DNA from: Rhodobacter sp.
Lineage (GTDB): Bacteria > Pseudomonadota > Alphaproteobacteria > Rhodobacterales > Rhodobacteraceae
Length of the DNA: 64,000 bases
Direction of reading: 5' to 3'
Assembly (NCBI GenBank): GCA_027484145.1
Contig: JAIXUH010000005.1
Span: 62,001-126,000 of the forward strand
A model generated the notes under the pieces. That model did not search any database. It had not been told where the DNA came from and saw only the letters and a list, made by a program, of their open reading frames with translations. Positions 38,445 through 54,022 of this stretch are shown here, in pieces. Each line of letters starts with the position of its first letter. Position 1 is the first letter of the stretch. Both the position numbers and the translations under genes were made by a program.

Positions 38445-39230
38445 CTAGTAGCCCTTTACCGTTTCGGCACTGGTCTGTCGCACCTCGGCCAATGACCTTG
38501 AAAGAGCGCCCATGAAAAGGCGAACATCGGTCAGAAGCGATGCGAAGTGAAATCCTTTGGTCAGCATATCCCTGATCATGGCCGGGGAACCGGTGTGTAT
38601 TCCCGCAATGCGGCCAGTAGCGCGGGTGCGCGCGACGATATCGAAAATGGCATCAAGGACTTCGGTCGCTGTGGGTTCAAGTGTCGGCTCATATCCCATG
38701 GACAGCCCAAGATCAGATGGGCCAACGTAGATTCCGTCGATGCCTTCGACGGACAGGATGCCGTCAAGGTTCGCCAAGGCCTCGCGGGTTTCGATCATCG
38801 CCAGAACGAGAATGGCTTGATTGGCCGTGCGGGCATAGGTTTGGCCGTAAACCATATTGGCGCGCGTGGGGCCAAACGAGCGCTCGCCAAGGGGCGCGTA
38901 GCGCGCGGACTGCACCAGTCGGCGCGCATCATCGACCGTGTTGATCATTGGGCAGATCACACCGGCGAAGCCTGCGTCGAGGGTTTTCATGACAATGCCG
39001 GGCTCGTTCCACGGCACACGCACCAAGACAGGCGCAGGCAGCCCTTGAAGCACCTGGAGCATGGTCAGGGCGGTCTGATAGTCGATCAGCCCGTGCTGAA
39101 GATCGACAGTTGTCATGTCGAACCCGGCTCGGCCGATGATTTCGGCCGTCACCGGCGAAGGGATGGAACACCAGCCGTTCACGGCCGTGCCGCCCGCAGC
39201 GAAATGCATTTTCAGATCAGTGATCGGCAT
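38445..39230 (-). CDS. HpcH/HpaI-family class II aldolase
   Basis: 261-residue TIM-barrel aldolase of the 2-keto-3-deoxy acid type. GFDMTTVDLQHGLIDY carries the conserved Asp and His, LVRVPWNEPGIVMKTLDAGF the conserved Arg, and LAMIETREALANLDGILSVE the metal-binding Glu. IYVGPSDLGLSMGYEP completes the family pattern. It splits a hydroxy-keto acid to pyruvate and an aldehyde, a typical last step of a catabolic route. It is the last gene of a six-gene operon, 12 bp after the hydrolase gene. Confidence 0.9.
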   Translation of the reverse strand: MPITDLKMHFAAGGTAVNGWCSIPSPVTAEIIGRAGFDMTTVDLQHGLIDYQTALTMLQVLQGLPAPVLVRVPWNEPGIVMKTLDAGFAGVICPMINTVDDARRLVQSARYAPLGERSFGPTRANMVYGQTYARTANQAILVLAMIETREALANLDGILSVEGIDGIYVGPSDLGLSMGYEPTLEPTATEVLDAIFDIVARTRATGRIAGIHTGSPAMIRDMLTKGFHFASLLTDVRLFMGALSRSLAEVRQTSAETVKGY

Positions 39231-39242
39231 GGGCTGGGTCCT

Positions 39243-39926
39243 TCAGGCAAGCCATTCGCGCAAGGCGCGCAGGGTGGTGCCGGGTTGCTCTAGAGGTGGA
39301 AGATGCGCCGCGCCAGAGATGATGTGAAGCCGCGATTGTGGCATAAGTCTATGCATCAACTGGTGGCGGTCGAGCGGGCAAAGTTTGTCGCCGGCCCCCA
39401 TCAGCACCAGCGCGGGGCGGGTGAATGTGGCCAGCGTGCCTTGCTGATCCAGCCTGTCGCGCAGAGCGCGAGACTGGCGGGCAAAAACCCTTGGCCCCAA
39501 GGTCAGCGCCATATCCATACAAAGATCAAGGATCACCGCCTTGTTCGGGCCGGCGTCAAGGTAGTTCGGTTTCATGTCCTCGCGAATCACACCTTCCAGA
39601 TCCCCGGCCAAGGCGCGGGATATCTGCGGGCCGCGTCGCATTTGTGCTTCCGGCGTTTCGGCACGCGGGTTGGTGTCCAACAACGCCAGCCTGTCAACAC
39701 GCTCGGGGGCCTGACGCAGAATCTCCATCGCAAGGATGCCGCCCATCGACAGACCGGCAAGGGCAAAGGTCGGGGGGGCGTCGGCGAGGAATATCGCCGC
39801 AAGTACCATCATCGTTTGTGCGGTGGTCGGCAGGTGGTGAATGATCGGAACCCCCAGATCGCGGTCAATGCCGCCCCACATTCTGGCGTCGCACATCATG
39901 CCGGGGATGAGTACCAGCGGGGTCAC
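39243..39926 (-). CDS. Alpha/beta-hydrolase
   Basis: 227-residue serine hydrolase with GTG start at 39926. LVLIPGMMCDARMW is the oxyanion-hole region, GLSMGGILAM carries the nucleophile serine, LVLMGAGDKLCPL the acid and SGAAHLPPLEQP the catalytic His. Related to carboxylesterases and 3-oxoadipate enol-lactonases, but short. In this operon it could open an ester or lactone. Ribosome site is weak, so translation may depend on the upstream gene 54 bp away. Confidence 0.85.
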   Translation of the reverse strand: MTPLVLIPGMMCDARMWGGIDRDLGVPIIHHLPTTAQTMMVLAAIFLADAPPTFALAGLSMGGILAMEILRQAPERVDRLALLDTNPRAETPEAQMRRGPQISRALAGDLEGVIREDMKPNYLDAGPNKAVILDLCMDMALTLGPRVFARQSRALRDRLDQQGTLATFTRPALVLMGAGDKLCPLDRHQLMHRLMPQSRLHIISGAAHLPPLEQPGTTLRALREWLA

Positions 39927-39980
39927 GGGGTCCGGAGACCTTTCGGGGCATCTGGAACGGTTTTGGAAGACGTCGCACCC

Positions 39981-41102
39981 TTAGCCAACACGTCTAGCGC
40001 CTTCCTTCAGGGCGGCCAGTTTGGCCCAGGCAATCTCGGGGTCGACCGCGCCAAAACCCGCAAAGGTGCCAAAGCCGCAGTCACTGCCGGCAATCACCCT
40101 GTCGGTCCCAAGGATGTTGGTGAACCGTTCTAATCGTTGGGCCACGAGATCGGGGTGTTCGACAAAGTTTGTCGTGGTGTCGACTGCGCCGGGGATCAGG
40201 ATCTTGTCTTCTGGTATGTCGGCGGCGCGATTGCGGAACACGGTCCATTCGTGGCCGTGCCGGGGGTTGGCGGTTTCGAACAGCACATAACGAGCAGGCA
40301 CCGACATCAGCAGGGGAAAGACCTTTGCCATATCGATATCGCAGACATGTGGGCCCTCGTAATTCCCCCAGCAGATGTGCAGACGGATGCGGTCCTGCGG
40401 CAGTCCTTGCAGGGCATGGCGCAGGGCTTCGACATGGACAGCGGCAATTTTCAGAAACTCGGCGTCTGACAGGCTGTTGAAGAGCATGTGCCGTGACAGC
40501 GCAAGGTCAGGGCAATCAAGTTGCAGGTCTAAGCCAGCATCAAGGATGGTGCGGTATTCATCATGCATCGCATCCGCAAGGGCGAAGAGATAATCTTCGC
40601 GCGTCGGATAGTGGGCGTTCTGCAGGAACAAGCTGATGACACCGGGGGAGGCCGCATTCATAAAGCCACGCGTCACCCCATGCGCGGCCATTGCGGCAGT
40701 CAGGTTGACGATATCCTTGCCAAGCTCGCCCTGGCCCTTGCTGGTGACGGGCCCAACACATTGCGGGCGGGCATATTTTGGCGTGCCGCCCTCTTTCGCC
40801 AGCCGGTCAAGGAAGGTCGGAAACAGCTTCAGGTCAGCGGGCGCATTCCTGGGGCTATCGCCGCCAAAGCCGGTATACCGGTCTTTGACATAGGTGGCAT
40901 AGCTGATCTTCGATGCCTCGCCGTCCGAAACGATGTCGATTCCTGCCTCTGCCTGGCGCCGGACATTCTCCATCACCGCTGCGGCCATGCAGGCATCAAA
41001 AGCGACAGGATCATAGGTTTCTCCCCTTTCGCGTGCAAAAAGGAAGTCCACCACCTGTTGCGGGCGGGGCAGAGAGCCGACATGCGTGGCGAGAAGGGCC
41101 AT
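39981..41102 (-). CDS. MetE-like cobalamin-independent methyltransferase (C-terminal-domain type)
   Basis: 373-residue TIM-barrel protein related to the catalytic half of cobalamin-independent methionine synthase, starting THVGSLPRPQQVVDFL. The zinc ligands appear intact: His242 and Cys244 in RLHICWGN, Glu276 in LFETANPRH, and Cys342 in GSDCGFGTF. Short stand-alone proteins of this family sit in many catabolic clusters, where they probably take a methyl group from a substrate rather than make methionine. Start at 41102 has AAGGAC six bases upstream. It lies ten bases after the bicupin gene in the operon. Confidence 0.85.
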   Translation of the reverse strand: MALLATHVGSLPRPQQVVDFLFARERGETYDPVAFDACMAAAVMENVRRQAEAGIDIVSDGEASKISYATYVKDRYTGFGGDSPRNAPADLKLFPTFLDRLAKEGGTPKYARPQCVGPVTSKGQGELGKDIVNLTAAMAAHGVTRGFMNAASPGVISLFLQNAHYPTREDYLFALADAMHDEYRTILDAGLDLQLDCPDLALSRHMLFNSLSDAEFLKIAAVHVEALRHALQGLPQDRIRLHICWGNYEGPHVCDIDMAKVFPLLMSVPARYVLFETANPRHGHEWTVFRNRAADIPEDKILIPGAVDTTTNFVEHPDLVAQRLERFTNILGTDRVIAGSDCGFGTFAGFGAVDPEIAWAKLAALKEGARRVG

Positions 41103-41112
41103 GATATTGTCC

Positions 41113-42081
41113 TTACAGAAGGCGGCCGGTCAAACCGGCCGGATCGTCGGTGGCAACAACGCGGTAAAGGCTGGCTTCGCCGGTCATCGACGGGGCAATT
41201 GCGTGCGCAAACCCCGGCGGAATCGCGGCAGTGTCGCCGGGGTTCAGGACGGTGCTACCGCCGGACCAAGACAGCCGCCAGTGACCGCGCATCGGCATCA
41301 GAACCTCGTGCTTTGTCTGGGTATAGAGCGTGTCGGGGATTGAGTTGCGCGAGAGGAATTCAACATCAAAGCCGGGTCGGTCACGCAGCTTGCCGTTCGC
41401 GCCGATCACCTTGGCGGGCTGGCGGTCGGACAGGGCCATCAGGTCCCAATAACGGGCGACGCAGTTCGGGATCACTTCGGCGGTGGTAGGTTCGGGAAAA
41501 GTGGTCAGTTCTTCTTCTGTCAAAAGCGGCATCGGCGGAACGCCGTCGGGTAGTATCTGGCCCTTTTTGCTGTCGTAAAGCTTGCCATTCTTGCCCAGAA
41601 CCAGACCGTAATTCTTGGCATCGGTAATCACCTGCGGTGCCCAGATCACACCGCCCCCGGCATCATCGCCGCCAAGGATCGCCATGATCATTCCGTAGTC
41701 GGTGCCGACATTTTCAAACGCCCGGAAAATGCCGGTCGGGATGTTGAAGATGTCGCCCTCTTCCGCAATGAACTCACCTGCGGTTCCCCAGCGGCCCCAA
41801 AAAAAGCGCCAACGGCCCTTCAGGACGAAGAAAACTTCGGCCGTGCGGTGCGAATGGAGGGAGTTGCGGCATCCTGGAGGCTGGCCTGCAGCGCCGATGT
41901 TGAAGCCGGGGGTATCACGAATATGCACATGCTGGTCGGGGCTCTCCGACACGCCGCCGCCGATGATGCTAAAGTTTTCCTTCCGGTCGCTGCCCGGCGT
42001 GTGCGCGTCGATGAACGCGGTTTTGCAGGGGCGCAGGTCGCCATAGCGGACGATGCGGGCTTCCATCTGGTCGGGGGTCAT
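41113..42081 (-). CDS. Bicupin protein
   Basis: 322 residues with two cupin barrels. The first has NSLHSHRTAEVFFVLKGRWR (two His and a Glu of the metal site) and FIAEEGDIFNIPTGIFRAFE. The second has TQTKHEVLMPMRGHWRLSWS and LNPGDTAAIPPGFAHAIAPS. Resembles gentisate dioxygenase-like or isomerase-type bicupins; the first barrel looks metal-competent, the second less so. Start at 42081 has AAAGGAAG. It lies 11 bases after the SDR gene. Reaction unknown. Confidence 0.85.
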   Translation of the reverse strand: MTPDQMEARIVRYGDLRPCKTAFIDAHTPGSDRKENFSIIGGGVSESPDQHVHIRDTPGFNIGAAGQPPGCRNSLHSHRTAEVFFVLKGRWRFFWGRWGTAGEFIAEEGDIFNIPTGIFRAFENVGTDYGMIMAILGGDDAGGGVIWAPQVITDAKNYGLVLGKNGKLYDSKKGQILPDGVPPMPLLTEEELTTFPEPTTAEVIPNCVARYWDLMALSDRQPAKVIGANGKLRDRPGFDVEFLSRNSIPDTLYTQTKHEVLMPMRGHWRLSWSGGSTVLNPGDTAAIPPGFAHAIAPSMTGEASLYRVVATDDPAGLTGRLL

Positions 42082-42092
42082 GGATCTTCCTT

Positions 42093-42857
42093 TCAACCGG
42101 CGGTCCAGCCGCCATCGACAAACAGTGAGGTTCCTGTGACCAGCGCTGCCGCGTCTGAGGCAAGAAAGACGACCGCGCCCATGATGTCGGTTGTTTCGCC
42201 CACGCGGCCTAGCTTGATCTTGGACGCGATCCACGCCGCACGTTCGGGGTTGGCAAAGGTGCCGACCGTCATGGGCGTGCGAATGAAGGTGGGGGCGATC
42301 GTGTTGACACGGATGCCATGCGGTCCCCATTCGATTGCCATCGATTTGGTCATCCCTTCGACGGCATGCTTTGTGGCGGAATAAACCGCCCGGTCGATCC
42401 CGCCGACATGGGCCATTTGGCTGGTGATGTTGATCAGGGATCCTGGCTTGCCAGCGGCGAGAAGGCCCTTGGCGACCGACCGGGTCAGGAAATACGCCGC
42501 GCGGAAATTGAGGTTCGCTGCGGTGTCGAAGTCCTCCGGCGTTGTCTCTGTTGCGGGAGAATGGCGGGCCAGCCCGGCAGAATTCACTAGCACATCAAAG
42601 GCTGGTCGCTCGGCGAGGGCCGCCTGCGTGGCGTCAAGATCGGTGACGTCGAGCGGCAGCGTTTCAGCCCGCCATCCCTCGGCACGCATGTCCTTGGCCA
42701 GAATCTCCAGTTCTGCCTCGCGCCGGGCGCATAGGGTAACCTCGGCCCCGTATTCGGCCAAGGCCACCGCGCAGGCCGCCCCGATTCCCGACGAAGCCCC
42801 CGCAACCAGTGCGCGGCGACCATCCAAACGAAACGAGGGGGTTCGCGGCAGGGTCAT
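42093..42857 (-). CDS. SDR-family oxidoreductase
   Basis: 254-residue classical [20 protein letters not shown] cofactor loop, [13 protein letters not shown], catalytic Ser in [11 protein letters not shown], and [11 protein letters not shown] with Tyr-x3-Lys. C-terminal [20 protein letters not shown]. The arginine pair after the second strand (CARREAELE) suggests NADP(H). The ATG overlaps the upstream HisD-like stop (ATGA), so the two dehydrogenases are translated together and probably act in sequence. Confidence 0.92.
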
Positions 42858-44164
42858 TCGGCGGCGGTTCCATAGGCCACGTTGCGGCCCCCATACCGGC
42901 GGACGCGAATGTTGCATTGTTCAGCGTGGCCAACGAAGCCTTCCAGCATGCACAGGCGACTGCCGTATTCGCCAATCATCGCGGCAGCAGCATCCGTCGT
43001 TATGCGCTGATAGCTGTGGGTTTTCAGAAATTTGCCAACCCAAAGCCCGCCGGTATAGCGCCCGGCCTTTTTCGTTGGCAGCGTGTGGTTGGTGCCAATG
43101 ACCTTGTCACCGTTCGCCACGTTGGTGCGTGGGCCAAGGAAGAGGGCGCCATAGCTGTGCATGTGCTGCAAATACCAATCATCACGGTCGGTCATCACCT
43201 GCACATGTTCCGACGCGATGTCATTGGCAACCGCCAGCATTTCGTCATGTGTACCGCACAGGATCACCTCGCCATAGTCGCGCCAACTGACCGCAGCTGT
43301 CGGGGCCGTGGGCAGGATGTGCAGCAGGCGGTCAATTTCGGCTAAAGTGCCTTCGGCCAGCTTGCGGGAATTGGTGACCAGCACGGCGGGGGAGTTGTAG
43401 CCGTGTTCAGCCTGACCCAGAAGGTCGGTCGCGCAAAGCTCGGCATCGACGGTGTCATCAGCGATGACCATCGTCTCGGTCGGACCGGCGAACAGGTCAA
43501 TCCCGACACGGCCATAAAGCTGGCGCTTGGCCTCGGCCACGAAAGCATTGCCGGGGCCGACTAGCATGTCGACGGGTCTGATCGTCTCGGTGCCGATGGC
43601 CATGGCGCCGACGGCTTGCATGCCGCCGAGGACATAGATTTCATGTGCGCCGCCCATGTGCATGGCGGCGACGATGGCAGGGTGGGGGGCACCGTTTACC
43701 GGCGGTGCGCTGGCGATGATGCGCGGCACGCCTGCCACGGCAGCGGTCAGAACAGACATGTGGGCCGATGCGACCATAGGAAACTTGCCGCCTGGCACAT
43801 AGCAACCAACCGACTGGACGGGGATATTGCGGTGGCCAAGAATGACACCGGGCAGGGTTTCCACCTCTACATCCGTCAGGCTGGCGCGCTGCACCTCAGC
43901 AAAGCGGCGGATCTGAGTTTGGGCAAACCGGATATCCTCAATATCGCGGGGGGCTACCTTTTGAATTGCGGCTTCGATCTGGGGGGCGGTCAGCCGAAAA
44001 GCGGGGGGATCATACTTGTCGAACTTAACGGACAGGTCGCGCACTGCTGTATCGCCGCGGGCGGAGATATCGGCAAGAACCCCTTCCACCGTCGCCCGAA
44101 CCTGCGCATCATCGGCTGCGCGATCCGCATCGGATTTGCCGCGCTTGAGCCAGATGATCGCCAT
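42854..44164 (-). CDS. Histidinol-dehydrogenase-family enzyme (first copy), catabolic
   Basis: 436-residue HisD-family NAD-dependent dehydrogenase. Zinc and catalytic positions look intact: DLLGQAEHG (Gln and His), SEHVQVMTD (Glu-His pair), [20 protein letters not shown] and VGHAEQCN near the end. The pattern is closer to catabolic members such as sulfopropanediol dehydrogenase (HpsN) than to histidine-pathway HisD, and no his genes are near. It probably oxidises a primary alcohol through the aldehyde to an acid. First gene of the six-gene operon, with a LacI-type operator 13 bp upstream of the start. Confidence 0.9.
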
Positions 44165-44176
44165 GGGGAGCCTCGA

Positions 44177-44194
44177 TTTGAATACGTGTGCAAT
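44177..44194. promoter_or_regulatory. LacI-type operator A (before first HisD-like operon)
   Basis: TTTGAATACGTGTGCAAT, an imperfect match to the 18-bp palindrome found at three other places, with the central CG typical of LacI-family operators. It lies just ahead of the minus-strand HisD-like gene start. Confidence 0.65.
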
Positions 44195-44299
44195 ATCATT
44201 AGATCAAGCAAAGTAGAGATGGCAAGCATTAACTCTCGGCAGAGGATCGCCTGATTGATCAGGGGCGGTTTCCTGCCAGCTTCCATCATGAAAGATCTA

Positions 44300-44317
44300 T
44301 TTGCAGACGTATGCAAA
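44300..44317. promoter_or_regulatory. LacI-type operator B (before second HisD-like gene)
   Basis: TTTGCAGACGTATGCAAA: perfect TTTGCA/TGCAAA arms around six bases with central CG. It lies 53 bp upstream of the plus-strand HisD-like gene. Same motif as operators at 52758 and 54102. Confidence 0.75.
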
Positions 44318-44369
44318 AATCTTTACAAAGCCGGTGGCAGATACCCGGCCCGCGCCAAAAGGAGACATC

Positions 44370-45665
44370 ATGTCTATCGCATCCGAAGCCTATACCTCTG
44401 ACAAGGTCAAATGGGTGAAATCCCCGACCCGAAGCGCCGAGAATGACAACAAGCCAGTGGCTGAGTTGGTTGCCGGTGTTCTTGCCGACGTGAAGGCAAG
44501 GGGCGACGCGGCGGTGCGAGATTATTCGGCCAAGTTTGACAAGGCCGAGGTCGGGGCGCTCGAAATCTCATTGGCCGAGCGCGAGGCAGCCGTGGCCGCA
44601 CTGGACCCGCAGACACGGGCAGACACCGAGTTTGCCATCGCCAACGTCAGACGGTTCGCCGAGGCGCAACTGGCGACGATCCTGCCGCTGGACATGGAAT
44701 CGTTGCCGGGGGTGCATATGGGCCACCGGGTGATCCCGATTTCCCGCGTGGGGTGCTATGTCCCGGGTGGGCGCTTTCCGCTGCTGTCGGCGCCGATCAT
44801 GACCATCGTTCCAGCCAAGGTGGCGGGGGTGGGTGAGGTGATAGCCTGCCTGCCGCCGAATGCGCATCAGGCGATGGTGGCCGGATGCCACCTGTCGGGC
44901 GCGGATCGGGTATTCAGGATCGGGGGCGCGCAGGCGATTGCCGCGATGGCCTATGGTACCGAGTCTGTGCCACCAGTCATGAAGATCATGGGGCCGGGCA
45001 ATGCCTTTGTAAACGAAGCGAAGCGGCAGGTTTTTGGCCCTGTCGGGATCGACCAGTTGGCCGGGCCATCAGAGATTTACATTCTGGCGGATGAGACGGG
45101 CGATGCCGAGATGATTGCGACGGACCTGCTGGCGCAGGCCGAACATGACGTTCGCACACGGGTGGGGCTGATCACGACAGACCGGACATTGGCCGAAACC
45201 GTGGTTGCGGAGGTTGAAAAACAACTGGTGGGGCTGTCGACGGCGTCGGTGGCGGCACCGGCGTGGGCCGACTATGGCGAAGTCGCAGTATGTGAGGACG
45301 AGGCGGCGATGATCGCCTATTCGGATTTTATCGCGGCAGAGCATCTGCAGGTTCATACCCGTGATCCGCATGACTTTGCCAAGAAGCTGACGAACTATGG
45401 GTCGCTTTTCATCGGCGAGTTGGCCAGCGTGGTCTATTCGGACAAGTGTTCGGGGACGAACCACACCCTGCCGACTATGGCGGCGGGGCGATATACGGGG
45501 GGTCTGTGGGTCGGGGCTTACGTGAAGATTGCGACGCATCAGTGGCTGTCGGAAGAGGGCGTCAAGCAGGTCGCCCCCCCGGCAGCGCGGCAGGCAGCAA
45601 GCGAGGGGCTGGAGGGCCACCGGCGGGCGGCGCAGTTGCGGCTGGACCGGATGCAGGTGCGCTGA
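44370..45665 (+). CDS. Histidinol-dehydrogenase-family enzyme (second copy), catabolic
   Basis: 431-residue paralogue of the divergently encoded first copy, sharing [60 protein letters not shown] and [20 protein letters not shown]. Zinc and catalytic residues appear kept. Start at 44370 has AAGGAGA seven bases upstream. Two such enzymes facing each other with operators between them suggest they oxidise two stereoisomers or two successive intermediates. It is a single-gene unit closed by hairpins. Confidence 0.9.
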   Translation: MSIASEAYTSDKVKWVKSPTRSAENDNKPVAELVAGVLADVKARGDAAVRDYSAKFDKAEVGALEISLAEREAAVAALDPQTRADTEFAIANVRRFAEAQLATILPLDMESLPGVHMGHRVIPISRVGCYVPGGRFPLLSAPIMTIVPAKVAGVGEVIACLPPNAHQAMVAGCHLSGADRVFRIGGAQAIAAMAYGTESVPPVMKIMGPGNAFVNEAKRQVFGPVGIDQLAGPSEIYILADETGDAEMIATDLLAQAEHDVRTRVGLITTDRTLAETVVAEVEKQLVGLSTASVAAPAWADYGEVAVCEDEAAMIAYSDFIAAEHLQVHTRDPHDFAKKLTNYGSLFIGELASVVYSDKCSGTNHTLPTMAAGRYTGGLWVGAYVKIATHQWLSEEGVKQVAPPAARQAASEGLEGHRRAAQLRLDRMQVR

Positions 45666-45669
45666 GGCT

Positions 45670-45692
45670 GGGTGTCCCGGGCAGGGACACCC
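45670..45692 (+). terminator. Hairpin after the second HisD-like gene
   Basis: Perfect 9-bp stem (GGGTGTCCC / GGGACACCC) with a five-base loop, four bases after the stop. Confidence 0.65.
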
Positions 45693-45717
45693 CTTCGGAC
45701 CATATGAAATCAATGGG

Positions 45718-45750
45718 TTAATGGGCCGTTTTAAGCGGCCCTTAACTTTT
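45718..45750. terminator. Bidirectional terminator between convergent genes
   Basis: TTAA-T-GGGCCG and CGGCCC-TTAA pair around loop TTTTAAG, followed on the plus strand by CTTTT. It separates the HisD-like gene from the convergent amidase gene. Confidence 0.7.
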
Positions 45751-45765: not shown

Positions 45766-47118
45766 TCAGCGGGGTGGGCGCTGGACGGAGTGATCGGTGG
45801 CGCGTTCAAAGGCGTGGCCAGCGGCGCAGAGCACATCTTCATCGCCGTGCCGTGCGACCAGTTGAAGGCCAAGGGGCAGGCCGTTCTCGAACCCTGCGGG
45901 CAGCGACAGGGCGGGTTGCCCGGTCAGGTTGAAGGCGATGGTGCGCATCGGGGTCCAGACGGCATTCTCGCCATCGAAGGCCGAGAATGGCAGCGCTGGG
46001 GTCAGGGTGGTTGCGGTCAGGATCAGGTCATATCCGTCCATCGCCGCCAGCATGTCTGCGGTCAGACGGGTCTGGGCCTGACGGGCGCGTGCCACGTCTT
46101 TCGCGTCGATCGCGGCCCCGAAGGCAAGGCATTGCAGGGTCGGGCGGCCATAGTCGTTCGCGTGGTCACGGATCAGGGTGCGGTGTTCTTCCAGCGCCTG
46201 GGCGTGAAGGATCACGGAAGCGGAAGCCTCATACGGGGCGTAGTCGGGCAGCGTGACCAGCGTGATCTGCGCGCCGAGGAGGGAGAGGGTGGACGCAGCC
46301 GCATCCATCGCTTTAATCAGGGCGGGGCTGGCTTGCGGGTCGTCGGCGAACCAATCGCGGGCATAGGCGATTTTCAGGCCGCTGACAGGCTGGCCGATCC
46401 GCGCCGAGGCGGGGCGCCAGTCGCCAGCCGTCATCGCGTCCAGCGCGAGGGCAGCTTCTTCGACCGTCGCCGCAAGGGGGCCGGTGTGGTCAAGGCTGGG
46501 CGAGAGGGGGAAGGCTCCTGCCCGGCTTACCCGGTCATAGGTGGGTTTCAGGCCGACGCAGCCACAATAGGCCGAGGGGGAGCGGATCGATCCGCCGGTG
46601 TCGGTGCCGATGGCGAGGCGGACAAGGCCCCCGGCCACGGCGGCAGCCGAGCCGGAAGAGGAACCGCCGGTGATGTTTGCAAGGTTCCATGGGTTGCGGG
46701 CGGGCGGGTTGGGAAGGCTAAGGTCTGGGCCGACCATCGCGAATTCGTAAGTCGCAACCTTGCCGATCAGCACCGCGCCTTGGTCGCGCAAGCAGGCGAT
46801 GGCGGGGGCGTCAGTTTCGGCAATCCGACCAGATAGAACGCGGGAGCCGGAGGTGGCGGGCTGACCTGCGACGTCGATCAGGTCTTTCACAGCGATGGGC
46901 AGGCCGCAGAGTGGGCCCGCGTTGCCTGACGCAAGCTGTGCATCGGCGCGGTCGGCCTGCGCCAGTGCATCGGCGGCGATGTGGGTGAAGACGTGAAGAC
47001 GGGGGTTCCGCGCGGCGACGCGGTCAAGGACAGCTTCGGTCAGCGTGCGGGATGTGAGCGTTCCGGCGCGCAGCATCGCGGCGGCCTCAAGCAGGGAAAG
47101 ATCACATGGGTTTGTCAT
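45766..47118 (-). CDS. Amidase-signature-family hydrolase
   Basis: 450-residue amidase of the Ser-cisSer-Lys type: Lys78 in PIAVKDLIDV, the serine run GGSSSGSAAAVAGG at 151-163, and nucleophile Ser177 in GTDTGGSIRSPSAYCG. The family includes AtzE/AtzF, GatA and aryl amidases. It follows, with a four-base overlap, a 49-residue AtzG-like protein. AtzE-type amidases need such a small GatC-like partner, which favours that branch over free-standing amidases. Part of the LacI-regulated transporter operon; would cleave an amide or ureido bond in the imported substrate. Confidence 0.92.
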   Translation of the reverse strand: MTNPCDLSLLEAAAMLRAGTLTSRTLTEAVLDRVAARNPRLHVFTHIAADALAQADRADAQLASGNAGPLCGLPIAVKDLIDVAGQPATSGSRVLSGRIAETDAPAIACLRDQGAVLIGKVATYEFAMVGPDLSLPNPPARNPWNLANITGGSSSGSAAAVAGGLVRLAIGTDTGGSIRSPSAYCGCVGLKPTYDRVSRAGAFPLSPSLDHTGPLAATVEEAALALDAMTAGDWRPASARIGQPVSGLKIAYARDWFADDPQASPALIKAMDAAASTLSLLGAQITLVTLPDYAPYEASASVILHAQALEEHRTLIRDHANDYGRPTLQCLAFGAAIDAKDVARARQAQTRLTADMLAAMDGYDLILTATTLTPALPFSAFDGENAVWTPMRTIAFNLTGQPALSLPAGFENGLPLGLQLVARHGDEDVLCAAGHAFERATDHSVQRPPR

Positions 47119-47264
47119 GACTTAAGGTAAGCTTCGACCTTGGCAACCTCGGCCCGCAGGTGCTGTGCCCCGGCCCACGCAGCGGCAAAGGCCTTGTCGT
47201 CAAGGGTCAGGCCCAGGGCGGCCAGACGGGCACGGAACGCGGCTTCGTTGAGTTCGGTTTTCAT
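47115..47264 (-). CDS. 49-residue AtzG/DUF4089-like amidase partner
   Basis: A small frame starting at ATG 47264 (overlapping the LacI stop as ATGA) and ending at 47115 within the amidase start (TCATGAC). It encodes MKTELNEAAFRARLAALGLT, then two amphipathic helices with AAWAGAQHLRAEVAKVEAYL. Size, two-helix pattern and coupling on both sides match AtzG-like (DUF4089) proteins, small GatC-like subunits that stabilise amidases. Identification is by pattern and context; no catalytic residues are expected. Confidence 0.75.
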   Translation of the reverse strand: MKTELNEAAFRARLAALGLTLDDKAFAAAWAGAQHLRAEVAKVEAYLKS

Positions 47265-48277
47265 CTGGCATCCCCGTAGCGGCGGGTGGAGGCACGGATG
47301 ATAAGTTCACCCTGCAAGACCACATGCGTGGTTGCGGGTTCCTTCGCGGCGATCCACGCGGTGAGCATCGACACGGTTTCGGCCACCATCACATCGACCC
47401 GCTGGCGGAAGGTGGTGAGGTTATAGGCGAGCCATGCCGCAGGGGGGACATCGTCAAAGCCGACCACGGAGACATCCTCCGGGATTCGCAGCCCCAGCTC
47501 GAAGCGAAGGACGTCCATCACGGCAAAGGCCATGTGATCATTGGCGACAAAGACGGCATCGGGGCGGCGGGAGGTGGCGAAAAGCTCCCGCGCGGCGGCT
47601 TGCGCCGTGCGGTAGTCAAAGTTGCCTTCGGCGCGGGCGAAGAGGTCTTGCCCCGCCTCTGCCAGCCCGGCACGGAAACCGGCCTCGCGGTCGATCTGGG
47701 TCGTCGCACCCGAGAACCCGGCAATGTAGGCAATGCGCTGGTGGCCTAGTGAACAAAGGTAGTCGGCCAAAGCCTTGCCACCCGCGTAGTTGTCGGAAGT
47801 AACCGAGCAAAGGTTCGGATCGGCGTGGCCCCGGTTGAAAAGGACAACGGGGATGCCGGTCGACTGGCAACGCGCGGCAAGATCGGAGGAAACGGATACC
47901 GAGGCGAGGACAATGCCATCCACCTGATAATCCATGATCTCGCGCACGACCTTGTCGACGTTTTCCGCGGAAACGGGGGCGAGAAAGATCAGGACATGGT
48001 AGCCGACCTTTTGCAGTTCCACCGACAGGCGTTCGACCATTTCGGGGTAAAAGTAGTTCTCCAGATAGGCGACGACGAGGCCGATGATGCGGCTTTTGCC
48101 AGATTTCATCGCACGGGCCAGCACGTTCGGGCGGTAGCCAAGCTGAGCGGCGGCAGCAAGGACCTTGTCTGCAGTTTTCTTTGAGACGGATGAGCCGGGG
48201 GTGAAGACCCGGCTGACGGCCGACTGGCTGACGCCCGCAAGGGCCGCGACTTCCAGCGAGGTTACTTTTTCAGCCAT
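47261..48277 (-). CDS. LacI-family transcriptional regulator
   Basis: 338-residue regulator: N-terminal HTH with hinge helix (TSLEVAALAGVSQSAVSRVF, then SVSKKTADKVLAAAAQLGYR and PNVLARAMKSGKSRIIG), then a sugar-binding-like effector domain (FVANDHMAFAVMDVLR, VSVVGFDDVPPAAWLAYNLT). It sits inside the transporter-amidase operon. Four operator-like palindromes with the central CG expected for LacI proteins lie before the four transcription units at 42-54 kb, making it the probable repressor of all. The inducer is probably the transported compound or an early product. Confidence 0.93.
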   Translation of the reverse strand: MAEKVTSLEVAALAGVSQSAVSRVFTPGSSVSKKTADKVLAAAAQLGYRPNVLARAMKSGKSRIIGLVVAYLENYFYPEMVERLSVELQKVGYHVLIFLAPVSAENVDKVVREIMDYQVDGIVLASVSVSSDLAARCQSTGIPVVLFNRGHADPNLCSVTSDNYAGGKALADYLCSLGHQRIAYIAGFSGATTQIDREAGFRAGLAEAGQDLFARAEGNFDYRTAQAAARELFATSRRPDAVFVANDHMAFAVMDVLRFELGLRIPEDVSVVGFDDVPPAAWLAYNLTTFRQRVDVMVAETVSMLTAWIAAKEPATTHVVLQGELIIRASTRRYGDAR

Positions 48278-48334
48278 GTGCCCTCCGACTTTTGCGGCCA
48301 GTCTTGGGCGAGTTGGCGGTGGCGGGCAAGTGCG

Positions 48335-49375
48335 TCATGCCAGCCGCGCGCCAGTCTTTGCGTCAAAGAGGTGGATCTTGTCGCTGGAGATTACCACGTG
48401 AAGGGGCGCGCCGATGCTTATGCGGTAGTCTTTCGGGGCGCGGATGGAGACGAGGGCAGAGCCGATGCGGACGGAGACGAGGGTGGCATCGCCCAAAAGC
48501 TCCATCGAGTAGACTGGGGCAGAAAGTTCGGCGGGGGTGTCGCTGACGCGGACATCTTCGGCGCGAAAGCCGAGGGTGACGGGGCCCGCGCCCTTGGCAG
48601 GCAGGCTGATGCCCTCGGCGCGAAAGGTGCCGTCGGTGATCGTGCCGTCGATCAAGTTCATAGCGGGGGAGCCGATAAAGCTGGCAACAAACGTGTTCGC
48701 CGGGCGGTCATAGATCTCGGTCGGGGTGCCAAGCTGCTGGACAAGGCCGTTGCTCATGACGACGACGCGGTCGGCCAGCGTCATTGCCTCGATCTGGTCG
48801 TGGGTGACGTAGATGGTTGTCCGGCGCAACGTGTGGTGCAGGTGCTTGATCTGCGCGCGGGTAGAGACCCGCAGCTTGGCGTCAAGGTTGGAAAGGGGTT
48901 CGTCCATCAAGAAGGCGTTCGGCTCGCGGACGATGGCGCGGGCAAGTGCAACGCGCTGGCGTTGGCCACCGGAAAGGGCGGCGGGGCGGCGGTCGAGGAA
49001 GGGGCCCAGTTCAACCATCTGGGCGGCTTTCATTACCCGTTCGTTGTGTTCGTTGGCCGGGATACGGCGGACACGAAGGGGAAAGCGGATGTTCTCATAG
49101 ACGGTTAGGTTTGGGTAAAGACCGTAAGACTGAAACACCATCGAGATGTCGCGGTCCTTTGGCTCGAGTTTGTTGACCATACGGTCGCCGATCCAGATTT
49201 CACCTTCGGTGACGTCTTCCAACCCCGCGATCATGCGCATCGTCGTGGTCTTGCCACAGCCCGAGGGGCCGAGCAGGACAAGGAATTCGGCATCAGCGAT
49301 GTCGAGGGAAAGGTTGTTGACGCCAACGTAGGAGCCCCAGCGTTTGCTGACATTCTTCAGGCGGATCTGAGCCAT
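48335..49375 (-). CDS. UgpC/MsmX-type ABC importer ATPase
   Basis: 346 residues: GPSGCGKTTTMRMIAGLE (Walker A), LSGGQRQRVALARAI (signature), FLMDEPLSNLDAKLRV (Walker B) and a C-terminal TOBE/OB region from about 240. This is the CUT1-type carbohydrate importer class. Starts three bases before the permease stop region, in tight operon with two permeases; the LacI gene follows 57 bp later. Confidence 0.93.
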   Translation of the reverse strand: MAQIRLKNVSKRWGSYVGVNNLSLDIADAEFLVLLGPSGCGKTTTMRMIAGLEDVTEGEIWIGDRMVNKLEPKDRDISMVFQSYGLYPNLTVYENIRFPLRVRRIPANEHNERVMKAAQMVELGPFLDRRPAALSGGQRQRVALARAIVREPNAFLMDEPLSNLDAKLRVSTRAQIKHLHHTLRRTTIYVTHDQIEAMTLADRVVVMSNGLVQQLGTPTEIYDRPANTFVASFIGSPAMNLIDGTITDGTFRAEGISLPAKGAGPVTLGFRAEDVRVSDTPAELSAPVYSMELLGDATLVSVRIGSALVSIRAPKDYRISIGAPLHVVISSDKIHLFDAKTGARLA

Positions 49376-49378
49376 GGG

Positions 49379-50257
49379 TTATCCTTTGACAGCGCCAGCG
49401 GTCAGACCCGAGACGATCTGGCGCTGGAAGAATAAGACGAGGAGGAAGAGCGGCACGGTGGCCGAAACGACAGCCGCAACGGCATACATCACGTTGCCCT
49501 CGTTCTGGATCGAGCCAAGGAAGCTGGCGATCTTTGGCACCATCGTCTGATTGTCCTGAGACAGCAGCATCGAGGTTACGGCAAAGTCGTTGTAGCCAAG
49601 GAGGAAGGAGAAAAGGCCGGTGGTGATCACACCGGGCCACATCACCGGCATGATCACCAAGCGGAAGGCTTGGAAGCGGGTGCAACCGTCAACCATGGCG
49701 CTTTCGTCAAGATCCTTGGGGATCGACAGAAAGAAGCTATGCAGCATCCATAGGGTGAAGGGCTGGTTAATGGCGACGAGGACGATGATCGTGGTGGGCA
49801 GCACACCCCAGATGTTCAGCTGAAAGAACGGCAGCATATAGCCCGACACCAGCGTGATATGCGGCATGGCGCGAAAGACGAGCGCGGCAATCAGAATCCA
49901 GAACGCGTAGCGATAGCTGGAACGGGCAAGTGCGTAGCCACCCAACGTGCCGATGGTGAGAGAGATGATCGTCACCGACAGCGTCACGATCAGCGTGTTG
50001 ATCGCGGCCTTCCAGAATTCGTTCTTCACCCACGCGCCTTCGTAGCCCGCAAGGGTGAAGGCTGACCCGGTCTGCGCCTGCGTTCGCGTGCCTTCGATGG
50101 CCATCCACCATGACTGGCGCGAGAAGAAGTCAGCCTCAGCCTTGAAGCTGCCCCAAACGGTCCAAGCAAAGGGGAATGCGGCGGCGACGACCCAAAGGAT
50201 CAAAAAGCCGACGACAAGGGCATGTAGCGCTGCAGGGCGGCGGGAGGCGAAGGACAT
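49379..50257 (-). CDS. MalG-type ABC permease
   Basis: 292-residue inner-membrane permease, six spans, with the cytoplasmic EAA loop ESAMVDGCTRFQAFRLVIMP contacting the ATPase. A large loop after the first span (about 35-80) is longer than usual. Start at 50257 lies two bases past the stop of the partner permease, implying coupled translation. Confidence 0.92.
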   Translation of the reverse strand: MSFASRRPAALHALVVGFLILWVVAAAFPFAWTVWGSFKAEADFFSRQSWWMAIEGTRTQAQTGSAFTLAGYEGAWVKNEFWKAAINTLIVTLSVTIISLTIGTLGGYALARSSYRYAFWILIAALVFRAMPHITLVSGYMLPFFQLNIWGVLPTTIIVLVAINQPFTLWMLHSFFLSIPKDLDESAMVDGCTRFQAFRLVIMPVMWPGVITTGLFSFLLGYNDFAVTSMLLSQDNQTMVPKIASFLGSIQNEGNVMYAVAAVVSATVPLFLLVLFFQRQIVSGLTAGAVKG

Positions 50258-50259
50258 GG

Positions 50260-51291
50260 CTACACCGCCTTCTGCGTGAAATCGCGCCACGTGCGGCGCA
50301 AAACAGGGGCAACAAGCATCAACACGCCGATGATGGTGATGACCGATGTCGCGGCGGCAGAGCCGAAAAGTTGCGAGTCTTGACCGACAAGGTCGTTGAA
50401 GACGAGCCAGCTGAGTGAGGTTGCATTCGCCTCTGCCGAAAAGCCGACGATGGGTTCGAAAACGCGGAAGTTGTCCATCAGCTGCACAAGGGCCACAAAG
50501 GTCGCCAAGGGCGCAAGATGCGGGATGATGACATGGCGGATGACCTCCCACCGGGAGGCGCCGTCGATCTTTGCAGATTCCACGGTGTCTTGTGGCACCG
50601 TTTGCAGGCCTGCGTAAAAGACGACGAAGGAGAAGGGGCCGTTGGTCCAGACCCCATAAGCCAACAGCACGATCCAAGTGAGGACCGGCGATGCCCGCAA
50701 AGACAGGGTGGGGTCTCCGGTCAGGCTTTGGAGGGACGCGCCCAAGATGCCGGTGGGGTTGAACATCCAAGCGAGGATCAAGGAGCCGACAAGGGGTGTG
50801 ATAATCATCGGCAGGATCGAGACGAAGATCGTTGGCCCTTTCAGCAGTCGCGGCAGCGTGTTGACAGCCAGGGCGATGGCAAAGCCGAGAGCCATGGCAA
50901 GCGGTGTGACAAGGAAGCAGTAGACGAGCGTGAAGGACAGCGCCTTGTAGAACGGCAGGTTGAACACGCGACCGACAATATCGCCGATGCCCTGATTGTC
51001 AGACAGGATCGACGCGATTTCACTGAGCGCCAGATGGTTGCGATTGAAATAGTTGGCAAAGCCCGCGAACTGGCCCAAGGGCCGTTCCTCTTGCAGCTTT
51101 GCCATTGCCTCGGTGTCGACCCGCGTTTGCGTTTCGCAGCCAAAGGGCGTGCAGTTTTCGACCGTGATCAACACTGCCTCGTGCTGCACAAACAGCGACT
51201 GCACCACGACCGAAATGATGGGCAATGTGATGAACAGCGCCATCGCCAGAATAGAGGGCAAGATGAAGGCAAAGAAGGTGCGATGCGGCAT
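50260..51291 (-). CDS. MalF-type ABC permease with large periplasmic loop
   Basis: 343-residue permease with EAA loop ESAKIDGASRWEVIRHVIIP. Between the first and second spans it has an about 80-residue periplasmic segment (residues 30-115) holding two cysteines close together (ENCTPFGCETQ), possibly a disulfide. Such a loop recalls the P2 loop of MalF that contacts the binding protein. Next gene follows after two bases. Confidence 0.9.
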   Translation of the reverse strand: MPHRTFFAFILPSILAMALFITLPIISVVVQSLFVQHEAVLITVENCTPFGCETQTRVDTEAMAKLQEERPLGQFAGFANYFNRNHLALSEIASILSDNQGIGDIVGRVFNLPFYKALSFTLVYCFLVTPLAMALGFAIALAVNTLPRLLKGPTIFVSILPMIITPLVGSLILAWMFNPTGILGASLQSLTGDPTLSLRASPVLTWIVLLAYGVWTNGPFSFVVFYAGLQTVPQDTVESAKIDGASRWEVIRHVIIPHLAPLATFVALVQLMDNFRVFEPIVGFSAEANATSLSWLVFNDLVGQDSQLFGSAAATSVITIIGVLMLVAPVLRRTWRDFTQKAV

Positions 51292-51361
51292 CGGGGCAAT
51301 CCGGGGCTAAGGGGCGGCAAGGCCCCGGGGACAACGCTTCATCAATGGTGAGGGTGAAATG

Positions 51362-51394
51362 GACCCGGCGGCAAGGGAGTTTTGCCACCGGGTC
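51362..51394 (-). terminator. Hairpin between binding-protein and permease genes
   Basis: GACCCGG-c-GGCAA pairs with TTGCC-a-CCGGGTC around a short loop. It lies 18 bases after the binding-protein stop on the transcribed strand. Likely lowers expression of the membrane genes relative to the binding protein. Confidence 0.6.
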
Positions 51395-51412
51395 GCGGCA
51401 CAGAAGGTGCCT

Positions 51413-52660
51413 TTACTTCAGGAAGCCGCCTTCTTTTGCAGCGGTGTCATAGGCGGCCTTTACGTCGGCCAGCGCCTGGTCCGCCTCTTCCTTGCCGGCG
51501 ATGAAGTCAGCCAGTTCAGCCGACAGCGCGGTGTGCAAAAGGCCCATATAGGGCTGCATCGGATAGGCGCGGGCGCCGCCCGTGGCATTGCCGATCACGC
51601 CAACGGCCGCCGGGCCAGGTTCGTACCCTGCAACCAGCCAAGTTGCGGCGTGCGGGTGGGCGGCCACGGTTTCCGGGCTGATCCCTTTGACCATGGCTTG
51701 GAAGGAAACTTCGGCATCAGCGTCTGAGATGTTCTTGGCAATGCTGAATCCGTCCCACCACAGGGCCGCAGCCGGGATCGTGCCACCGCCGATTGTGGGA
51801 GCTGCGGCAAAGGCGGTGTTGGCTGCGATGTCAGCGTTAGCGGTGGCCGGGTCGGTCGCAGCCCCGGCCAAAGAGCCCCACTGGCTCATGATGGCGACAG
51901 AGCCTGCATCCCAAATCTTGTTCAGCTCGTTCGCGTCATAGGTCAGGTAATCGGGGTTCATGAAGCCTGTCATCGCCCGCATGGTTTCCAGCACCTTGCG
52001 GCCATTTTCATTGTCGATCGCCAGTTCGGCACTGCCGGGCGCAAAGAAATCAGCGCCGGTGCCCAGATACATGTTCACGAATTCGGCGGCGAGGTCCCAA
52101 CCCGGCTTGTCTGAGGCCGCCAGCGGGTAGTCCATCAACCCGGCGTCCTTGATCTTTTGCGCGGCGACAAGCACCTCTTCATAGCTGGTCGGCACGGCGA
52201 CGCCGGCCTTTTCAAGAATATCCTTTCGGTAAAACATGTGCTGGCCGTTGCCCATGAAGGCGATGGCCATGACCTTGCCGTCGATCTTGATCAACTGGTT
52301 TGGCTGCAACGACTGACCGTACTTGGCGACCAAATCATCGAGGGGACGGATCAGGTCTTCGTTCAAGAGTGGAACAATGGAGTTATTGGCAACGACCGCG
52401 ACGGAGTATTCCGCCGGGTTTACGGTAAGGGCCGGGCCTTGGATGTTCTTATGCTCTGCCGTGGCGTTGGCGGTTACAGTGACCGCGGCGGTGGCGCAGG
52501 ATGTGGCGACGTCGTTGACGATGCGCAGGGCCTCGAAATCATTGGACAGGATTCGGACCGAGCCTGCCCCTTGAATGCCGCAATCAGCAAATGCAGCAGT
52601 GCCGGCGATGAGTGCTGCCAGGCTGACGGCGCCGGCGGCGAAGGTTTTGGTAAACTTCAT
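51413..52660 (-). CDS. CUT1-type extracellular solute-binding protein
   Basis: 415 residues with Sec signal (MKFTKTFAAGAVSLAALIAG, cut after AAFA). The mature part is a family 1 solute-binding protein: FMGNGQHMFYRKDILEKAGV and VPTSYEEVLVAAQKIKDAGL are classic. It contains two cysteines near the mature start (DCGIQGAG and SCATA), possibly bridged. It heads the LacI-regulated transporter operon; operator C is 98 bp upstream. Ligand is not deducible: carbohydrates, polyols and amides are all possible. Confidence 0.92.
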   Translation of the reverse strand: MKFTKTFAAGAVSLAALIAGTAAFADCGIQGAGSVRILSNDFEALRIVNDVATSCATAAVTVTANATAEHKNIQGPALTVNPAEYSVAVVANNSIVPLLNEDLIRPLDDLVAKYGQSLQPNQLIKIDGKVMAIAFMGNGQHMFYRKDILEKAGVAVPTSYEEVLVAAQKIKDAGLMDYPLAASDKPGWDLAAEFVNMYLGTGADFFAPGSAELAIDNENGRKVLETMRAMTGFMNPDYLTYDANELNKIWDAGSVAIMSQWGSLAGAATDPATANADIAANTAFAAAPTIGGGTIPAAALWWDGFSIAKNISDADAEVSFQAMVKGISPETVAAHPHAATWLVAGYEPGPAAVGVIGNATGGARAYPMQPYMGLLHTALSAELADFIAGKEEADQALADVKAAYDTAAKEGGFLK

Positions 52661-52757
52661 AGTGGTTCGTTCCCCTCTGCTGGCGAAACGCTCGCCGGTT
52701 GGCTGTTGGACGGCAGGACTCAGATGGCGCCTGCCTTAGGCGAAAAGGTAAACACCT

Positions 52758-52775
52758 TTTGCATACGATTGCAAA
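52758..52775. promoter_or_regulatory. LacI-type operator C (before transporter operon)
   Basis: TTTGCATACGATTGCAAA: perfect six-base arms around TACGAT with the central CG. Located 98 bp upstream of the binding-protein start. Confidence 0.8.
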
Positions 52776-52815
52776 CACTATGTGCTATGGCCGTCATTCG
52801 GGCCTGAAAGCACAT

Positions 52816-52838
52816 CGGCCCGCCTTGGAGGCGGGCCG
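52816..52838 (-). terminator. Terminator-like hairpin after the double-NTF2 gene
   Basis: Perfect 9-bp GC-rich stem (CGGCCCGCC / GGCGGGCCG) with a five-base loop, 23 bases beyond the stop of the minus-strand gene and ahead of operator C. Confidence 0.65.
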
Positions 52839-52861
52839 CTTACCGGTCGGTTGCATAATGA

Positions 52862-54022
52862 TCAGGCGTTGGCCGTCAGGCTGGCAGATTTGACGTCAGC
52901 CATCTGGGCAAGTTTGATCTGGACCAGTGCCGAGGCCTCATCATAAACGCGCCATTCGTCGACGATCTTGCCGTTCTTGTAGTGGAAATGGGTGATGCCC
53001 ATGATCTGCACCCGTTTGCCCGTGGGCGTGCCGAGGTGGTTCAGGATGCCAAAGCCAATGTGGTGGCCTTCCATGATCCAACGAACTGCAACTTTCTCGC
53101 CGCCTTCTTCGCAGGGGGTCGAGCAGATGTGGTGCACGGTAAAGGCTGCGTCGGGGATAGAGCCGATCAGGCCAAGCGTCTGGTGGATGATCGCGGCGTG
53201 ACCATAGAGTTCAGCCATCAGAGGGCCGTGATACTGCGCGGTGGCTGCATAGACCTTGGCGATGGTTCCCAGCATCTTGCGGTTAAAGACATCATGCAGC
53301 CAGCGAAGGGTGTGACGTTCCAGATCTGAATTCGCAAGTGCCAGGTCAGGCTCTGCTTCGGGCGGGTATTGGCCGATCATGTGGCGGTTTTCGCCGATAT
53401 CCAGCGAAACCATGCCCTTGTCGAAGGCAGATTTGGCAATCCGCTCGGCATAGCCCTGCACATCAACGCCAAGTTGCTGCAAGATCGCGGTGGTGTCGGC
53501 GACAACCCATTCCCGGTAAATCTTGTTCTCATAGATCATGCAGTCGGCGACAGTGCGCGAGGTGAACATGCGGCCTGTTGCAGGCCCGAGGTGCCCGTTC
53601 TGGCTGTGCCGCCCTGTGCCGGTGACCAGGTGTGAGGTGTAAAAGCCTTCGTCTTCGTTTCCTTTCCAGATGACATGCGTGGCCATTCCGCGCCGTTCGG
53701 GAAAGCTGACAAGCCGTTGGATTGTGTCGCGGACAACCTCTTCGCGGGTGTAAAGCGTGCCCGTGGTGCCATAGAGGACACAGTTGTGCGTGTAATGGCT
53801 GTAGATCAGCCCGATATCACGTTCGTCCCAGATAAGATGAGTGCAGCGGACGATGTAGTCGACAATGTCGGTGTAGATCGGGTCGAAGCCGCGCATCGGT
53901 TGCGTGCGCGTGCCATTACGCGGCGCAAGGTCGGGGTAGTCATGTCGTTCAACTTGCCTGACACGATCAGGGTGGGTGGGAGTCAACTCTCCACCCTTCT
54001 GGCTGTCCACCTTTTCCGACAT
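52862..54022 (-). CDS. Double SnoaL/NTF2-fold protein
   Basis: 386 residues made of two NTF2-like domains: the first around residues 50-180 (HLIWDERDIGLIYSHYTHNC, REWVVADTTAILQQLGVDV), the second around 225-365 (FNRKMLGTIAKVYAATAQYH, ITHFHYKNGKIVDEWRVYDE). Each carries the acidic/His residues typical of ester cyclase or SnoaL-like proteins. I prefer the start at 54022, six bases after GGGAG; upstream ATGs at 54028 and 54037 are less well placed. It is a separate unit with operator D 80 bp upstream, so probably in the LacI regulon. Function unknown. Confidence 0.82.
   Translation of the reverse strand: MSEKVDSQKGGELTPTHPDRVRQVERHDYPDLAPRNGTRTQPMRGFDPIYTDIVDYIVRCTHLIWDERDIGLIYSHYTHNCVLYGTTGTLYTREEVVRDTIQRLVSFPERRGMATHVIWKGNEDEGFYTSHLVTGTGRHSQNGHLGPATGRMFTSRTVADCMIYENKIYREWVVADTTAILQQLGVDVQGYAERIAKSAFDKGMVSLDIGENRHMIGQYPPEAEPDLALANSDLERHTLRWLHDVFNRKMLGTIAKVYAATAQYHGPLMAELYGHAAIIHQTLGLIGSIPDAAFTVHHICSTPCEEGGEKVAVRWIMEGHHIGFGILNHLGTPTGKRVQIMGITHFHYKNGKIVDEWRVYDEASALVQIKLAQMADVKSASLTANA

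Follow-up and report, generated by a model that had tools for sequence, protein, structure and literature searches.

An apparently undescribed LacI regulon with a putative catabolic enzyme core in Rhodobacteraceae and more distant bacteria

Four described systems stand closest to the genes considered here: the catabolism of 2,3-dihydroxypropane-1-sulfonate (DHPS), the core-MetE methionine synthases, the aldolase end of gallate/protocatechuate 4,5-cleavage and the sugar regulons of LacI-family repressors. In the first, the sulfonate is recognised by His126 of the dehydrogenase CpHpsN (available part of PMC11382572), in the second the zinc ligands are His, Cys, Glu and Cys (the residue types named in the available part of PMC12478193), and in the third the RraA-fold 4-carboxy-4-hydroxy-2-oxoadipate (CHA) aldolase is evolutionarily convergent with HpaI, according to a reference title listed in PMC5065237. 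With these we compare a 15.6-kb region of four transcription units (38445 to 54022) in a window of 64,000 nucleotides from a Rhodobacter sp. genome (4.97 Mb; contig of 173 kb). A single predicted operator word fronts all four units and is absent elsewhere in the genome at up to two mismatches; the same word and an enzyme core recur in relatives from several families, and the 15.6-kb region is a lineage-specific form of this wider regulon. With slightly better than even confidence, we favour the reading that the regulon serves the uptake and O2-dependent breakdown of a small, polar, hydroxylated compound, O-methylated in the alphaproteobacterial version, as far as a pyruvate aldolase.

Operator and gene set of the 15.6-kb region

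Allowing up to two mismatches, the window holds four copies of the word TTGCATACGTATGCAA (44178, 44301, 52759 and 54103), one ahead of each unit, where 0.0 matches were expected from 30 first-order Markov simulations. The whole genome returned the same four sites and no further ones, the reversed word giving 0 as a control, and related loci in three other genera (G285, G202 and G077) carried four, three and two sites, all on the contig of the cluster and again with a control of 0. The sequence-only reading had proposed one operator motif for all four units and a single LacI regulon; the motif is present at all four, every genome-wide site lies here, and the shared operator supports common control. 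The features are as follows (window coordinates).

54103 to 54118: predicted LacI operator, unit 1; two mismatches; 81 bp ahead of the double SnoaL start codon
52862 to 54022, minus strand: double SnoaL/NTF2-like protein, unit 1 (PF07366/PF12680; start 54022)
52759 to 52774: predicted LacI operator, unit 2; two mismatches; 99 bp ahead of the solute-binding protein start codon
51413 to 52660, minus strand: CUT1 solute-binding protein, unit 2 (from its place in the importer operon)
50260 to 51291, minus strand: CUT1 permease 1 (PF00528)
49379 to 50257, minus strand: CUT1 permease 2 (PF00528; start set at 50257)
48335 to 49375, minus strand: importer ATPase with OB_MalK/TOBE (PF00005, PF17912, PF08402)
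47261 to 48277, minus strand: LacI-family repressor (PF00356 and PF13377)
47115 to 47264, minus strand: AtzG-like small subunit, 49 aa (translation; family name carried over from the sequence-only reading)
45766 to 47118, minus strand: AtzE-like amidase (PF01425; GTDTGGSIR stretch)
44370 to 45665, plus strand: HisD-B dehydrogenase, unit 3 (PF00815; own clade, without the HpsN marker His)
44301 to 44316: predicted LacI operator, unit 3; one mismatch; 54 bp ahead of the HisD-B start codon
44178 to 44193: predicted LacI operator, unit 4; two mismatches; 14 bp ahead of the HisD-A start codon
42854 to 44164, minus strand: HisD-A dehydrogenase, first gene of unit 4 (PF00815; clade adjoins HpsN, without the marker His)
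42093 to 42857, minus strand: short-chain dehydrogenase/reductase (SDR) (PF13561; start 42857)
41113 to 42081, minus strand: bicupin
39981 to 41102, minus strand: MetE-C-like (core-MetE-like) protein (PF01717)
39243 to 39926, minus strand: alpha/beta hydrolase, PcaD/BioH-like
38445 to 39230, minus strand: HpaI-type class II pyruvate aldolase (PF03328; TIGR02311 below cut-off)

All genes named in the sequence-only reading were thus found in place. The importer operon runs from 52660 down to 45766 in the order solute-binding protein, permease, permease, ATPase, LacI, AtzG-like protein and amidase, and the enzyme operon from 44164 down to 38445 in the order HisD-A, SDR, bicupin, MetE-like protein, hydrolase and HpaI, with HisD-B divergent on the plus strand. 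The solute-binding protein matched nothing in Pfam at E<=0.001, its single weak NCBIfam match being NgcE (E=1.2e-4).

Spread of the core and its accessory module

The MetE-like protein is present in 117 of 295 same-family genomes, the source genome included (E<=1e-20, mostly 70-80% identity). A scan of named genomes gave at least 588 confirmed relatives among at least 595 pattern matches; labels among the 80 kept include Ruegeria, Planktomarina, HTCC2255, SAR116, Octadecabacter and Microvirga. Its neighbours were tallied over 103 loci, the window and 102 others, in which the MetE-like gene was called: HisD (80), SDR (78), bicupin (77), LacI (74), NTF2 proteins (SnoaL5 73, SnoaL18 54, SnoaL9 46), hydrolase (68) and an RraA-family aldolase candidate (55) recur beside it, as does, in relatives too, the CUT1 importer. 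These counts, and those from 121 MetE-bearing loci below, include duplicate contigs (at least L054/L081, L051/L117, L063/L154 and L057/L091), miss genes at contig or fetch ends, and are lowered by antisense frames that the gene caller chose in some GC-rich loci (e.g. L052, L053). Annotated examples of the set occur in Ruegeria sp. THAF33 and Marinovum algicola DG898, HTCC2255 holds the complete core in one row (L118), and a hydrolase match was absent from L056.

The operator, too, recurs in relatives. At up to three mismatches, the 102 loci (1.96 Mb) gave 55 matches in 34 loci and the reversed word four, seven of the 55 falling within called frames (L047, two in L053, L063, two in L082, L159). 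Whole-genome searches of 80 of the 117 MetE-bearing genomes found the operator at up to one mismatch in 35 (44 sites), the control giving one site in one genome; 33 sites lie near the MetE-like gene on its contig and 11 elsewhere, in nine places. Behind such an off-cluster site stand a cupin (L172), a cupin and hydrolase (L177) or a HisD (L179), and in L174, L176 and L178 the importer and/or SnoaL18 members of the set. A PF04909 amidohydrolase gene was seen in five loci (L182, L183, L178, L074, L133), in the first three of which it adjoins SnoaL18 in a divergent unit behind an operator.

The window version differs from its relatives in three respects: it additionally has amidase/AtzG and HisD-B, a different double NTF2 protein replaces their usual NTF2 families, and HpaI stands in place of the RraA-family protein of most relatives. 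Across the 121 MetE-bearing loci, 67 carry RraA alone, six HpaI alone (at least 76% to the window HpaI; five genomes) and three both, the HpaI relatives there being at 31, 33 and 56%; such an exchange fits the convergence of HpaI and RraA-fold CHA aldolase. Citryl-CoA lyase with CoA-transferase occurs in two loci without RraA and one with it, and is therefore not a clean RraA replacement. Genes of the latter kind (CoA-transferase family III with citryl-CoA lyase) were noted in L180 (2372-4320), L105 and L091, the L180 pair ending the regulon's importer operon.

Amidase and HisD-B together form an accessory module. The amidase was found in 11 of the 121 loci (9 distinct genomes), HisD-B accompanying it in all 11 and occurring in two further loci cut near HisD-B, and in L059, L063/L154 and L130 the core, RraA and the module lie side by side. 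A small frame similar to the AtzG-like one precedes the amidase in four of six loci inspected (L054, L055, L081, L084) and was not seen in L059 and L082; AtzE models match the window amidase below cut-off (271.4 against 461 bits and 262.8 against 425.75). The sequence-only reading had suggested a methylated, hydroxylated amide as a fitting substrate, with amide cleavage as an early step. Here the amidase and AtzG-like genes do lie inside the LacI operon, and G487 has a perfect operator at an amidase gene close to the end of a different contig; amide cleavage as the first step would be compatible with our favoured model for the window version. Since so few loci carry amidase and HisD-B and the others run the core without them, an amide as the defining feature is not supported, and we regard an amide substrate as improbable.

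Looking further afield, a bicupin profile searched across the phylum detected relatives in 25 of 398 genomes: 16 from the same family, one from another family of the class and eight from beyond the class. Thirteen loci were fetched, nine from outside the family, and seven of these nine (L214-L216, L218-L220, L224) retain SDR, LacI and hydrolase together with HisD (63-72% to its closest counterpart in the family), cupin (36-46%) and an HpaI relative (26-51%). In L217 only the cupin-HpaI-hydrolase trio is present, and L221 has none of the set. L219, L220 and L224 combine the two types of HisD with a double SnoaL of the window type (65-68%), and the transporters tested were MFS or SSF. Operators were found in L215, L218, L219, L220 and L224 (control 0), the L218 site being perfect and at the called HisD start; one further match lies inside a gene (L217) and one does not adjoin a core gene (L216, from G568, which had no operator at up to two mismatches). 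In Pantoea dispersa YSD_J2, with two operator sites and a control of 0, the order is amidase-HisD-ester cyclase-NTF2-LacI, then MFS-HisD-SDR-hydrolase-aldolase-cupin. A 64% relative of the window double SnoaL adjoins HisD-B in Pantoea, and a 58% relative lies near cupin and HisD-B in Novosphingobium resinovorum.

The same trio occurs without HisD in L222, Salinivibrio kushneri and Ensifer adhaerens, beside tetronate genes (OtnK, class II aldolase and OtnI-type isomerase in L222; OtnK and aldolase in Ensifer), and in Rhizorhabdus wittichii RW1, beside an SDR; none of the four has an operator at up to three mismatches. The tetronate-linked loci L222, L228 and L231 appear to represent a sister pathway. 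Around MetE relatives in Rhodococcus and Halobaculum, an incomplete gene table lists no HisD, cupin, aldolase or NTF2 gene nearby.

Enzyme families and candidate pathways

The scheme of the sequence-only reading is supported in its LacI regulon, its catabolic character and its want of a described match in the open-licence papers searched, and is not supported in its amide-centred substrate. In the route that we favour for this conserved regulon, each reaction is read from its protein family. Without inducer, LacI would repress importer and enzymes; the CUT1 importer would take up the compound, which probably carries a hydroxymethyl group beside a hydroxyl. Like HpsN and HisD, HisD-A (and HisD-B here) would use NAD+ for a single four-electron oxidation that turns a CH2OH next to C-OH or C-N into a carboxylate, the SDR may oxidise or reduce a ring or chain hydroxyl, and the NTF2 proteins may carry out dehydration, isomerisation or hydrolysis. 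A thiol would receive a methyl group from the core-MetE-like zinc protein, and the bicupin would use O2 as a dioxygenase of reductone or enol-ketone type. The ester or lactone so formed would be opened by the PcaD/BioH-like hydrolase, and pyruvate would be released by a class II aldolase, which is HpaI here and RraA in most relatives with an aldolase seen. Amidase/AtzG and HisD-B may widen the range to an N-substituted form.

We aligned 19 of the 94 long HisD proteins of the family with eight from outside, and all 27 keep E-H-D-K, that is, the catalytic Glu-His and the Asp-Lys of HpsN. The closest solved structures to both HisD-A and HisD-B are DHPS dehydrogenases, which would fit the catabolism of a DHPS-like sulfonate; all 27 carry Met, Leu or Ile at the position of CpHpsN His126, contradicting this, and no sulfo-lyase is named among the core clusters. 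HisD-A and HisD-B were accordingly rejected as HpsN enzymes, and sulfonate catabolism is scarcely credible.

In the MetE-like protein H242, C244, E276 and C342 are invariant over 28 aligned sequences (His-x-Cys, Glu, Cys), at positions that we take to be those of the zinc ligands. Demethylation, as the sequence-only reading had it, would depend on this one protein, which retains the ligand residues and is lacking from six of the seven fuller clusters outside the family. In Novosphingobium pentaromativorans US6-1 (L076) a 50% relative lies among LigA, an extradiol dioxygenase, MetF, PurU, FolD and an aminomethyltransferase, presumably LigM-like, a neighbourhood that hints at a tie between the MetE-like family and methyl-group chemistry.

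The same neighbourhood, with its class III extradiol dioxygenase, would suit ordinary ring degradation of a methoxylated phenolic acid by a gentisate- or salicylate-like bicupin, a PcaD-like hydrolase and HpaI or CHA aldolase. The bicupin fold is indeed present, and by predicted fold it resembles ring-cleaving bicupin dioxygenases, near salicylate and gentisate dioxygenase; RraA also gives weak LigK matches. The core clusters, however, hold no monooxygenase or Rieske enzyme, the bicupin lacks the full 3His/1Glu motif, and we know of no HisD-type oxidation or CUT1 import for phenolic acids, so that we judge this route very unlikely.

HpaI scores 155-158 bits with GarL-type models, nearly as high as its 168-bit match. 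RraA-family relatives carry the Arg-Asp signature E-x20-R-D-x2-[DE] in 60 of 60, matched by 25 of 2607 other proteins, the Glu form having been fitted after the motif with Asp/Gly in first place found 0 of 60; against the LigK equivalog they fall below cut-off (29.7 against 304.5 bits). The near-equal GarL scores are one of several points for the catabolism of an O-methylated sugar or sugar acid without ring cleavage or O2, in which the dehydrogenases would yield a sugar acid, the bicupin would be an isomerase, the hydrolase (and, in some relatives, the PF04909 protein) lactonases, and HpaI/RraA 2-keto-3-deoxy acid aldolases. CUT1 importers and LacI regulators are typical of sugars, the trios beside tetronate genes point the same way, and the sole NCBIfam match of the PF04909 protein, below cut-off at 124 of 400 bits, is L-fucono-1,5-lactonase. 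Set against this, no sugar kinase or glycosidase occurs among the core clusters, the closest bicupin folds include several ring-cleaving dioxygenases, and we know of no role in sugar-acid routes for two to four NTF2 proteins per cluster. We hold it possible, and clearly less probable than the O2-dependent route.

A named substrate can be put forward for the O2-dependent route, although we think it unlikely: gadusol or the rings of mycosporine-like amino acids (MAAs), common algal sunscreens, degraded via a cyclic reductone. HisD-A would oxidise the ring CH2OH, beside a tertiary OH, to COOH, and the core-MetE-like protein would strip the 2-methoxy group; demethylated 4-deoxygadusol is a cyclic reductone. 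From this the bicupin and O2 might give CHA (or its methyl ester, then the alpha/beta hydrolase), the substrate of the RraA-fold CHA aldolase, and RraA or HpaI would yield pyruvate and oxaloacetate, the NTF2 proteins, amidase/AtzG and HisD-B handling amino or amino-alcohol side chains (glycine, serinol, glutaminol). By our own chemical reasoning, the carbon skeletons would match atom by atom. The tetronate-linked trios, pointing toward sugar acids, and the absence of the MetE-like protein from most full outside clusters count against it.

Several observations also weigh against the O2-dependent route and the regulon as we draw it. Oxalate decarboxylase and seed vicilins tie with dioxygenases in the bicupin fold comparison. 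The usual cupin metal site is a 3His/1Glu motif, and the first cupin does not have it complete: H76, H78 and E82 are invariant, and an equally invariant R120 replaces the second-motif His. With this tie and R120 at the fourth metal-ligand place, dioxygenase activity is unproven. The MetE-like gene is missing from six of the seven fuller outside clusters, being kept in L216 only (62%). None of the four aldolase-end genes searched for was found in 42 of the 121 loci, several of them cut at their ends, the window-type loci L055 and L082 among them. No operator at up to one mismatch occurs in 45 of the 80 MetE-bearing genomes, and at two of the nine off-cluster places (L173, L175) no core gene adjoins it. 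Single two-mismatch sites carry little weight in the nine-genome search, since the reversed control matches once or twice in five of the nine, and the motif alone is not diagnostic, because G301 uses the word for another LacI's maltose-type regulon. That maltose/starch-type regulon (L232, contig 22) has four sites within one mismatch.

Around the region in the window lie further genes. A second CUT1-type importer adjoins it at 54305-61089; besides its ATPase, permease and SBP_bac_8 protein, this stretch encodes a winged-helix regulator and a protein with an alpha-L-arabinofuranosidase C-terminal domain, and the operator at 54103 sits between this stretch and the double SnoaL gene. A MobC/VirD1-like mobilisation protein is encoded at 62717-63274, and the contig may thus be a plasmid. 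On the other side are an ABC ATPase, FtsX-type permease and CrtC/lipocalin protein, consecutive at 34269-38408, and a tandem pair of acetamidase/formamidase family genes (31182-33613).

Comparison with described systems

That no described pathway has this gene set, as first supposed from the sequence alone, agrees with the titles and abstract starts of the open-licence papers searched, which describe neither the set nor its MAA-catabolism route; the main text of a LacI regulon review (PMC4052901) has no mention of 'HisD', 'histidinol' or 'cupin'. The set appears to be shared by many aquatic and some plant-associated bacteria and to be undescribed. The marker gene occurs in 117 of 294 genera sampled in the family, and loci were found in genomes labelled Planktomarina, HTCC2255, Octadecabacter and Ruegeria, which would point to a compound common in the environment and to a route of breakdown so far unmapped. 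This substrate is directly searchable by way of the conserved operator, the dedicated binding protein and the cupin/hydrolase/aldolase end, and were it a mycosporine-type sunscreen or other methylated cyclitol, a gap in aquatic carbon cycling would be filled.

Each of the closest systems shares one part of the regulon. DHPS catabolism (hpsN-hpsO-hpsP) likewise joins a HisD-family four-electron dehydrogenase, an SDR and a transporter in marine Rhodobacterales (available part of PMC11131964), but the aligned HisD-A and HisD-B sequences lack the sulfonate His, and the regulon adds LacI/CUT1, NTF2, cupin and aldolase. Core-MetE methionine synthases have the same short MetE catalytic domain and conserved His, Cys, Glu and Cys, whereas the MetE-like protein sits in a catabolic regulon and, in the window, falls far below the cut-off of the five matching NCBIfam methionine synthase models. 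With the 4-hydroxy-4-methyl-2-oxoglutarate (HMG)/CHA aldolase end of gallate/protocatechuate 4,5-cleavage it has in common a class II pyruvate aldolase and, in relatives, an RraA fold with the R-D signature; its candidate dioxygenase is a bicupin, however, and the LigK model lies far below cut-off. LacI-family sugar regulons, such as the maltose-type regulon of G301, share the operator word and LacI control, yet the enzymes targeted here are not amylases or glucosidases.

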